This document shows positions 15,097 to 29,388 of a DNA stretch of 35,692 nt, piece by piece. Within the stretch, counting starts at the first letter, position 1; each line of letters starts with the position of its first letter. The stretch is from Bacteroidales bacterium. GTDB lineage: Bacteria; Bacteroidota; Bacteroidia; Bacteroidales; UBA1402. The stretch is from assembly GCA_017958305.1 (NCBI GenBank), contig JAGDCW010000028.1, positions 1 through 35,692 on the forward strand. Direction: 5' to 3'. Below the pieces are notes generated by a model. The model was given only the letters and a program-made list of their open reading frames with translations. It was not told the origin of the DNA and did no database searches. A program made the position numbers and the translations under genes.

Positions 15097-15127
15097 CAAA
15101 AGTAGTGAAACCGCCCGCAACCGCAAA
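15097..15127 (-). promoter_or_regulatory. argS promoter
   Basis: Read on the minus strand: TTTG (15127-15124), 19 nt spacer, then TACTTTTG (15104-15097). Both elements and the spacing fit the Bacteroidota consensus exactly. The start codon follows about 37 nt downstream. Confidence 0.75.
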
Positions 15128-15676: not shown

Positions 15677-15708
15677 TTTGCATTTGCCGACGGCTTGTAT
15701 TACCTTTG
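15677..15708 (+). promoter_or_regulatory. Promoter of the rhomboid-priA operon
   Basis: TTTG (15677-15680), 20 nt spacer, TACCTTTG (15701-15708): a full match to the Bacteroidota consensus. The first start codon is 19 nt downstream of the -7 element. Confidence 0.75.
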
Positions 15709-24534: not shown

Positions 24535-25251
24535 ATGAAACGCCCCGACAAGACATTTTGGAGCCTTCTTTTGCTGAGCCTGGCGGTCCTTCCCTTATCG
24601 GCCCAGCATAAAAAACCGCAATATCTGCAATACGAGGATATGCGGCCCTACCACTTCGGCTTCTTCGTCGGCCTGCATACCCAGGATTTCCAGATTGCGC
24701 ACACCGGAGCGGTCGATGAAAACGGAGCCACCTGGTATGGCAGCGTCCCTTCCTATTCGCCCGGATTCAGCGTGGGCGTGCTGGGCGACTACCGCCTGCG
24801 CGACAACCTGAGCTTGCGGCTGAGTCCGACCATCCATTTCGGCTCGAAGACCATGGCGCTGGTGTCCGACCAACCCGACTGCGAGATTGTCACGACCAAC
24901 ATCCGCTCCAACTACATCATGCTGCCGCTGAACCTGCGCTACCGGGGTGCCCGCACCGACAACTACCGTCCCTATCTCCTGACCGGTGTCAGCCTGGGCA
25001 TCGATGCCGGCCGGCGCAAAAAGAAAGAGATCCAGCTCAAGGAACTGAACACCTATTGGGAAATCGGCGTGGGCTGCGATTTCTACACCCCCTATTTCCG
25101 CTTTGTGCCGGAATTGAAGCTTTGTCTGGGGTTGAGCGACATTTTCGAACACAACCGCAACGAGGAGAGCGATGCCGCCTTCGTCCACTACACCAACGCT
25201 TTCGAGAAGATATCCTCGCGCCTGATTGTGTTGAGTTTTCAGTTTGAATAA
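24535..25251 (+). CDS. porT: PorT/SprT-like outer-membrane beta-barrel protein
   Basis: A 238-residue protein with signal peptide (MKRPDKTFWSLLLLSLAVLP, then LSAQ). The mature part opens with RPYHFGFFVGLHTQDFQI and ends with YFRFVPELKLCLGLSDIF and LIVLSFQFE, the same landmarks as the PorT/SprT barrel proteins of Bacteroidota. PorT of Porphyromonas gingivalis is needed for type IX secretion; homologs also exist in species not known to use that pathway, so the role here is inferred. The start was moved from an upstream in-frame TTG (24517) to ATG 24535 because the signal peptide begins there. No clear -7 element was seen. The last 13 nt overlap rsmE on the other strand. The gene symbol is by family resemblance. 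Confidence 0.78.
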   Translation: MKRPDKTFWSLLLLSLAVLPLSAQHKKPQYLQYEDMRPYHFGFFVGLHTQDFQIAHTGAVDENGATWYGSVPSYSPGFSVGVLGDYRLRDNLSLRLSPTIHFGSKTMALVSDQPDCEIVTTNIRSNYIMLPLNLRYRGARTDNYRPYLLTGVSLGIDAGRRKKKEIQLKELNTYWEIGVGCDFYTPYFRFVPELKLCLGLSDIFEHNRNEESDAAFVHYTNAFEKISSRLIVLSFQFE

Positions 25252-25955
25252 AGCGACTTCATCTGCAGAGTCAGACCCGCCACCAGTGCGGCCGTCTCGG
25301 TGCGAAGACGCATGTCGCCCAAAGTGACGGGCGTATATCCCAAAGACTTGGCTTTCTCCACCTCTTCAAGGCTGAAATCACCCTCCGGACCTATCAGCAC
25401 CACAGCGTCGCGACCCGCTTGGCAACAGTCGTTGAGCAAAAGCCGCGGACCAGCCTCCGACTCCGGATGGCAATGACAGATGAAACGATCCGCCTCGGAA
25501 AACCGGGTGACAAAATCGTCGAAGCCGGTCAGTTCGCCCACCTGGGGCAAGGTGGCCCGCTGCGACTGCTTCATGGCCGATATCGCAATCTTGACCAACC
25601 GGTCGGTCTTCAACATACGACGTTCCGAAAAGCGGCACGAAAGGAAAAACAACCCGTCGATGCCGATTTCCGTCAACTTCTCGGTGAGCCACTCCATCCG
25701 GTCGAGGTTCTTGGTCGGCGCCACCGCCACATACAGGCGGCCCGGACGTGTCTTTTGAGGCAAGGTCTCGAGAATCTCCACACCGCAATGTCTGGGATGC
25801 GCCTCGACGATGCCGGCCGTATAGAAACAGCCCCGGCCGTCGGTCAGACGGATCCTGTCGCCGGGCTGCATACGCAGCACCCGCACACAGTGGGCCGACT
25901 CCTCCTCGGGCAAGAAGGGATTCTCCAGAATATCGGGCGTATAGAAAATATGCAT
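25239..25955 (-). CDS. rsmE: 16S rRNA (uracil-1498-N3)-methyltransferase
   Basis: It methylates U1498 of 16S rRNA in the 30S subunit. From ATG 25955 (MHIFYTPDILENPFLPEEES) it is 238 residues; an open frame continuing 19 codons upstream has no family match and covers the promoter. The N-terminal PUA-like domain (HCVRVLRMQPGDRIRLTDG) is followed by the SPOUT methyltransferase domain with YVAVAPTKNLDRMEWLTEK, SRFSERR-type loop (here SCRFSERRML), the SAM-binding knot VVLIGPEGDFSLEEVEKA and LGDMRLRTETAALVA. Everything expected of the family is present. Convergent with the PorT-like gene, overlapping it by 13 nt. Confidence 0.95.
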   Translation of the reverse strand: MHIFYTPDILENPFLPEEESAHCVRVLRMQPGDRIRLTDGRGCFYTAGIVEAHPRHCGVEILETLPQKTRPGRLYVAVAPTKNLDRMEWLTEKLTEIGIDGLFFLSCRFSERRMLKTDRLVKIAISAMKQSQRATLPQVGELTGFDDFVTRFSEADRFICHCHPESEAGPRLLLNDCCQAGRDAVVLIGPEGDFSLEEVEKAKSLGYTPVTLGDMRLRTETAALVAGLTLQMKSLYSN

Positions 25956-25976
25956 AGGCGTTTCCAGTTCCTGTGA

Positions 25977-25984
25977 CAAAATTA
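25977..25984 (-). promoter_or_regulatory. Possible -7 element for rsmE
   Basis: Minus-strand TAATTTTG fits TAnnTTTG, 21 nt before the rsmE start and 26 nt after the terminator of the upstream small transcription unit. No convincing -33 element. Confidence 0.4.
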
Positions 25985-26010
25985 TAACAAATCTCTTTTC
26001 GGGAGAAGAC

Positions 26011-26044
26011 AAAAAAAAGAGGAAGCGTTATTGGCGCTTCCTCT
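26011..26044 (-). terminator. Terminator of the candidate small RNA
   Basis: AGAGGAAGCG (26018-26027) pairs with CGCTTCCTCT (26035-26044), 10 bp, 7-nt loop, with the A8 run at 26011-26018 as minus-strand U-tract. It would also stop any read-through from rluA. Confidence 0.88.
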
Positions 26045-26108
26045 CTTAAAAAAGCTTATCTCCCGACAAACTCTCTTCATTAACCTTAAATCTAATACCA
26101 TGAAAAAC
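26011..26108 (-). ncRNA. Candidate small RNA, about 98 nt, promoter-to-terminator unit without an ORF
   Basis: Between rluA and rsmE lies a complete minus-strand transcription unit: consensus promoter at 26115-26146, predicted start near 26108, terminator ending at 26011. The predicted RNA has an unpaired 5' part containing CATGGTATTAGATTTAAGG (complement of 26083-26101), then a hairpin of about 13 pairs with a GGGA (GNRA) tetraloop at 26061-26064 (stem 26051-26077) followed by U6, then the terminator hairpin. No start codon with a plausible frame fits inside. The 5' segment resembles, from memory, a sequence recurring in intergenic regions of Bacteroidales genomes and may belong to a described Bacteroidales small RNA family (for example Bacteroidales-1 or a paralogous sRNA family); I cannot check this. 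Targets are unknown. Confidence 0.65.
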
Positions 26109-26114
26109 ACGGAA

Positions 26115-26146
26115 CAAATATATGTCCTTTTTTTATTGCCTCCAAA
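26115..26146 (-). promoter_or_regulatory. Promoter of the candidate small RNA
   Basis: On the minus strand TTTG (26146-26143), 20 nt spacer, TATATTTG (26122-26115). Both elements and the spacing match the Bacteroidota consensus. It lies about 80 nt after the rluA stop and points away from it, with no protein gene start within 150 nt. Confidence 0.75.
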
Positions 26147-26224
26147 TACTGCTTTCCGAAAAATTGGCAATTAGCACGTTTTATCTCAAATTTAACAGAT
26201 TATAAGCATTCGGGGGATGTATCT

Positions 26225-26899
26225 TTATTCATTTTGGAAACATTTCCACAGCGGCTCGTCCTCGGGGAAAGGGGCCGTGACCTCTATCAATTCTTTGCTG
26301 ACAGGATGGATAAAGGAGATTTTCCGGGCGTGCAACGAGATGCCGCCTCCCGGATTGGAACGCGGAAAACCGTATTTCAAATCGCCTTTGATGGGGCAAC
26401 CCATGGCGGCCAGCTGGCAACGGATCTGATGATGCCGACCCGTCTTGAGGTCGATTTCCAGCAGGCAGTAGCGGTCGCTCCGACCCACCAGGCGATAATG
26501 AAGTATGGCCTTCTTGGCCCCGGGGCGCATGTGGTCATAGACATACGACTTGTTCTGCTGCTCGTTGCGCACCAGATACTGCTCGAGTGTGGCTTCCGGT
26601 TGCCTGGGGACCTCCTTGACGATGGCCAGATAGGTCTTGTGCACCTCGCCGTTGCGAAACATCTCGTTGAGCCGCGCCAGGGCCTTGCTGGTACGGGCAA
26701 AGACCACCACCCCCGACACGGGCCGGTCCAGACGGTGTGCCACTCCCAGGAAGACATTGCCCGGCTTGTGGTATTTTTCCTTGATCCACTGCTTGAGGCT
26801 GTCTTCGAGCGACACATCGCCCGTCTTGTCGGACTGGACAATCTCGGAGCCCGACTTGTTGATGATGATCAGATGGTTGTCTTCGTAGAGTACCGTCAT
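26225..26899 (-). CDS. RluA-family RNA pseudouridine synthase
   Basis: A 224-residue enzyme that converts uridine to pseudouridine in rRNA or tRNA. The catalytic Asp is in GVAHRLDRPVSGVVVFA; further family motifs are LYEDNHLIIINKSG near the N-terminus, KTYLAIV, and LKTGRHHQIRCQLAAMGCPI. ATG 26899 (MTVLYEDNHL) is preferred; the open frame continues 23 codons upstream but that part overlaps the rpsT terminator. There is no S4 domain, as in short RluA-type enzymes of the YqcB/TruC or RluA group, so the target site is uncertain. It lies 74 nt after rpsT, separated by a terminator, so it depends on read-through or on a promoter I could not see. Confidence 0.93.
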   Translation of the reverse strand: MTVLYEDNHLIIINKSGSEIVQSDKTGDVSLEDSLKQWIKEKYHKPGNVFLGVAHRLDRPVSGVVVFARTSKALARLNEMFRNGEVHKTYLAIVKEVPRQPEATLEQYLVRNEQQNKSYVYDHMRPGAKKAILHYRLVGRSDRYCLLEIDLKTGRHHQIRCQLAAMGCPIKGDLKYGFPRSNPGGGISLHARKISFIHPVSKELIEVTAPFPEDEPLWKCFQNE

Positions 26900-26908
26900 G
26901 GCGATAAG

Positions 26909-26940
26909 AAAAAAAAAAGACCGTATCTGAGATACAGTCT
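26909..26940 (-). terminator. Terminator after rpsT
   Basis: AGAC-C-GTATC and GATAC-A-GTCT (26918-26940) form a nine-pair stem with one internal mismatch and a 3-nt loop. The A10 run at 26909-26918 is the minus-strand U-tract. It begins 33 nt after the rpsT stop and ends about 10 nt before the rluA start. Confidence 0.82.
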
Positions 26941-26973
26941 GACACACTTTACCGTGTGAGGGCGGCACGAGCC

Positions 26974-29356: not shown

Positions 29357-29388
29357 TTTGGCAAAGACAGAGAAGAGAGATATTTTTG
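29357..29388 (+). promoter_or_regulatory. Promoter of the TPR/outer-membrane-barrel/recO operon
   Basis: TTTG (29357-29360), 20 nt spacer, TATTTTTG (29381-29388), both consensus. The start codon is 40 nt downstream of the -7 element. Confidence 0.75.

Follow-up and report, generated by a model that had tools for sequence, protein, structure and literature searches.

A FopS-family small RNA gene with two 3' hairpins between rluA and rsmE in a ruminant-gut Bacteroidales lineage

The window (the whole stretch of 35,692 nucleotides analysed here) carries on its minus strand an rluA-type pseudouridine synthase gene (26225-26968; PF00849, 4.4e-33) and, downstream of it, the 16S rRNA methyltransferase gene rsmE (25239-25955, likewise minus; PF04452, 5.6e-37, and PF20260). 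Between the two, a cmscan search with Rfam 15 placed a match to RF04319 (BTncRNA_FopS) on the minus strand at 26110-26044, which scores 67.7 bits against a gathering threshold of 56 and is full-length, the FopS core covering model positions 1-71 of 71. Match and neighbours confirm the compact small RNA gene that had been predicted at this place from the raw sequence. The surmise of a known or multicopy family was also correct: FopS occurs in multiple copies in Bacteroidaceae and in several families besides, with one copy found here. The family named in the original prediction, Bacteroidales-1, was the wrong one: the window has no match to it at the gathering threshold and positions 25900-26300 have none at E<=1, and the sole likeness between the two RNAs is their occurrence in Bacteroidales. 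We consider it very probable that the element at 26110-26044 is a FopS sRNA gene, whose product acts in trans by seed pairing with start-codon regions. The present analysis shows that the gene belongs to the family, and also its promoter, structure, conservation and synteny; the FopS family itself is already known, and what is new is the single copy, the two-hairpin end and the lack of a detected partner protein.

FopS was described in Bacteroides thetaiotaomicron as a set of 14 paralogues of about 65-70 nt, which are induced by bile salts and block translation by pairing at the start codon with mRNAs for polysaccharide utilisation, susC among them; translation of susC homologues, for example BT_3983, is repressed via an extended seed, R1', and the RRM protein RbpB binds FopS and antagonises its repression (Ruttiger et al. 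2025; PMC11697453). The evidence for this mechanism consists of EMSA, in-line probing and in-vitro translation (PMC11697453). The RNA of the window shares with FopS the family-consensus 5' seed, a single-stranded 5' end, the canonical promoter, the family 3' hairpin and the intergenic location.

The promoter is a canonical Bacteroidota (sigma-ABfr) promoter directly upstream of FopS (26115-26146, minus strand) and reads TTTG-N20-TATATTTG, with the -33 element TTTG at 26146-26143 and the -7 element at 26122-26115, a layout that is kept in all genus members. It had been called near-ideal. The window contains 4 exact matches to TTTG-N19-21-TANNTTTG, against 0.12 expected from shuffles. The 5' end is predicted at 26110, which is position 1 of the Rfam model, at the G of GUGUUUUUCAU, rather than near 26108 as first proposed. 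The other exact canonical promoters in the window lie at 15097-15127 (minus strand), 15677-15708 (plus) and 29357-29388 (plus), the last directly after a tRNA-Asn gene.

FopS promoters of other families bear a palindrome, TATGTTNTATAACATA, at about RNA position -36 to -21, where it overlaps the -33 element and the spacer. Allowing up to 3 mismatches, 17 of the 28 FopS promoters at order level contain it (shuffles: mean 0.16, maximum 2), including L032, L035, L037, L039, L043, L045 and L048 from other Bacteroidales families, as against 0 of the 16 FopS copies of the window's own family. Exact ATGTTNTATAACATAA sites number ten in five genomes, and five of these are FopS promoters. The palindrome could be an operator that underlies the reported bile-salt induction; a literature search for it gave no paper.

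The 103 nt from 26110 to 26008 fold at -31.9 kcal/mol (z -4.4), a stability that no shuffled sequence among 200 reached, and the fold contains two hairpins. Hairpin 1 (26048-26077, minus strand) is the FopS family stem, with the GGGA tetraloop and the 13 pairs that had been expected; the U6 noted after it is absorbed in its 3' arm. Hairpin 2 with its U run (26011-26047, minus strand) is a strong intrinsic terminator, as proposed, and a lineage addition to FopS: its stem (26047-26015) has 13 pairs followed by the remaining part of the U8 run, and it reaches -18.6 kcal/mol in the window and -15.4 kcal/mol in the genus genome G008. The distance of about 70 nt that had been given between promoter and hairpins is right if counted from the first base of the promoter; counted from the transcription start, it is about 33 nt to the beginning of hairpin 1. 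Covariation of the stem had been suggested as a check, and compensatory changes occur at 5 of the 7 core pairs of stem 1 across the order (0 of 500 shuffles as good). In hairpin 2 both sides change at 3 pairs among five genus sequences, a number of sequences so small that the support is modest.

Hairpin 1 had been taken for either a structured element or a first terminator. It is the terminator stem of the FopS family itself, here in a weakened form: its core has -5.5 and -5.3 kcal/mol in the window's genus versus -9.8 in the genera g2 and g3. Its U run, too, is either short or taken up into the stem by pairing. Whereas FopS as described ends in a single 3' hairpin at about 65-70 nt, the RNA of the window has this weak family stem and then a strong second terminator, which makes the predicted RNA about 100 nt long rather than 65-70 nt. 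Genus g2 combines the full family terminator with a different second hairpin (-21.9 kcal/mol), and the tandem terminator is therefore a feature of the lineage. We infer that termination has moved to hairpin 2 in the window's genus, with less confidence as to which hairpin terminates.

A predicted length between those of FopS and GibS raises the question whether the gene is a GibS orthologue, i.e. a longer RNA that carries two seeds, R1 and R2, and a terminator of its own, and not FopS. The GibS model (RF04182) aligns from the same 5' end through the second terminator with 53.7 bits, and an R1 seed at the 5' end and a strong final terminator are common to both RNAs. However, this score, the second-best in the local search, is far below the gathering threshold of 115, the alignment deletes a large part of the model's middle, which the RNA of the window lacks, the promoter is of the canonical kind reported for FopS and not PM2 (PMC11697453), and in sister genera this position is occupied by a plain FopS hairpin. 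We regard a GibS orthologue as very unlikely.

The FopS assignment agrees with the 5' seed GUGUUUUUCAUGGUAUUAGAUUUAAGGUUAA (R1/R1' of FopS; 26080-26110, minus strand), which lies single-stranded at the extreme 5' end and whose nt 1-31 match the order consensus. In the alignment of 35 copies across Bacteroidales nearly every column of the first 31 nt is invariant or at least 90% conserved, while the stem and flanks vary. The 5' stretch of 33 nt before hairpin 1, proposed as an unpaired pairing region, is indeed unpaired in the MFE structure; in the genus consensus fold part of the seed is weakly paired with nt 31-37. The complement of the seed reads ...ACCATGAAAAACAC, or in a longer reading ...TAATACCATGAAAAACAC, which is a start-codon context.

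The conserved region also contains an ATG with an open frame, and its conservation might reflect a gene for a small protein whose reading frame begins at RNA nt 10 (AUGGUAUUAGAUUUAAGG..., M-V-L-D-L-R-L). The probability of this is close to negligible: three loci (L035, L037 and L054) have ATA in place of ATG, the third codon position varies no more than the other two, a further locus (L016) has a 1-nt deletion in the frame, the end of the frame differs even within the genus, and sORFs at the B. thetaiotaomicron fopS loci were excluded by the authors (PMC11697453). The two chance ORFs that cross the region (62 aa on the minus and 47 aa on the plus strand) are not conserved in the other members of the genus, where they are broken or shifted, in line with the earlier statement that there is no ORF.

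The named relatives of the window's genome are Bacteroidales MAGs of roe deer, goat and cattle gut, with a sister set that includes UBA1402; the lineage is one of ruminant-gut Bacteroidales, whereas known FopS belongs to Bacteroidaceae. One FopS copy was found in the window's genome (1.98 Mb, 82.5% complete), compared with 12-15 copies per genome in Bacteroides. The multicopy property of Bacteroidaceae members, which is not part of the Rfam model, is not seen in the window's genus: FopS is present in five of its six genomes, in one copy each, always between rluA and rsmE and in the identical gene order rpsT-rluA-FopS-rsmE. The sixth genome (G004, 70% complete) is without FopS and without an rluA orthologue, and because the latter is missing too, the FopS locus is probably unassembled. 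Within the same family, genus g2 has one copy per genome, in the order rpsT-rluA-FopS, and genus g3 has two. Where a genome has a single copy, there is none of the redundancy that stood in the way of deleting all fopS genes in B. thetaiotaomicron.

In all five genus copies FopS immediately precedes rsmE and has its orientation, and one g3 copy (L013) also lies just before rsmE. Together with the two adjacent hairpins, this position would suit an element that acts on rsmE in cis, as a leader or attenuator composed of hairpin 1 and terminator 2, in place of a trans-acting sRNA. However, FopS sits after rluA in g2, with no rsmE match in the g2 loci examined, and there is no rsmE at the remaining g3 and order-level loci examined. 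Hairpins 1 and 2 do not compete, both being present in the MFE structure, and the conservation of the seed is independent of the downstream gene. We therefore consider a cis-acting role highly improbable.

For a trans-acting FopS RNA we propose that a housekeeping-type promoter would direct RNA polymerase to initiate at about 26110. Most transcripts would terminate at hairpin 2 (26047-26015) and some perhaps at hairpin 1, yielding an RNA of about 100 nt or about 65 nt. The free 5' seed (nt 1-31) would pair with mRNAs around their start codons, the most likely partners being susC-type glycan-transporter operons, and this pairing would block ribosome loading. Translational repression and susC targets are suggested by the work on B. 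thetaiotaomicron (PMC11697453). The window's genome has 21 matches to the SusC model, some of which are fragments or related receptors. At SusC starts of the genus the true seed pairs with a mean of -12.3 kcal/mol versus -9.6 for shuffled seeds (0 of 300 shuffles), but the excess is not specific to SusC, since genes in general show a mild one too (mean -12.6 versus -11.2; 2 of 60 shuffles). Targets were predicted among 218 crudely called genes, taken from about 0.3 Mb and from the window. The best SusC candidate (G000:C88:28963-32124; L075) ranks first among these 218 genes with 17 bp and one bulge: its start region UCUGAUGCGUAUGAAAAA, identical in L081 and L084, pairs with FopS nt 4-20, and the candidate target overlaps with the stop codon of the ORF before it. 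An equally good best match was obtained from 39 of 150 shuffled seeds, and the candidate is not significant genome-wide. Fixed-register complementarity of SusC starts gave no clear signal, and a search of the genus for the anti-seed pattern with up to 3 mismatches returned only FopS itself and two weak matches, neither at a recognisable SusC start.

Unlike B. thetaiotaomicron, in which FopS is associated with RbpB, the window's genus probably lacks this known protein partner; the association does not belong to the Rfam model. No RRM_1 (RbpB) gene was detected in six draft genomes of the genus and three of g2, including genomes that are 96% and 99% complete, and at E<=10 these yielded only one match of 23 positions (E 1.5); RRM_1 is present in 3 of 4 g3 genomes and in the Bacteroides ihuae control. 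In a sample of 198 Bacteroidales genomes, 13 of the 35 with FopS are without RRM_1, and the two show no association (RRM_1 in 22/35 versus 120/163; p 0.22, Fisher test uncorrected for relatedness). The absence of RRM_1 from FopS-positive genomes, drafts of which some are 96-99% complete, suggests that FopS is probably not obligately tied to RbpB. We are less confident that the RNA works without RbpB in the window's genus. It is a tentative and rather doubtful idea that FopS is here a single-copy, RbpB-independent repressor, and that the loss of RbpB accompanied the decay of the family hairpin and the takeover by the second terminator. With genomes in which RRM_1 was not detected, any need of FopS for RbpB becomes testable. 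A set of eleven FopS-positive genomes in which RRM_1 was not detected (G033, G037, G053, G080, G099, G120, G122, G146, G150, G162 and G184) is for the most part 98-99% complete.

The same sample, with FopS above threshold in 35 of 198 genomes and in 1 to 14 copies, extends the range of FopS beyond the published one, Bacteroidaceae. FopS is absent from the text of a preprint of 2026 about an RNA locus that responds to nitrite (PMC13370916). The exact 31-nt seed is found in none of the viral contigs; a degenerate 26-nt seed occurs in 19 of them (L155-L173, IMG/VR). A FopS-like seed is also carried by Bacteroides phage BX-TP2 (PQ571285.1, 44786-44872), in agreement with a published remark on a phage copy, and FopS-like seeds lie on Bacteroides, Phocaeicola, Parabacteroides and Prevotella records of a plasmid collection.
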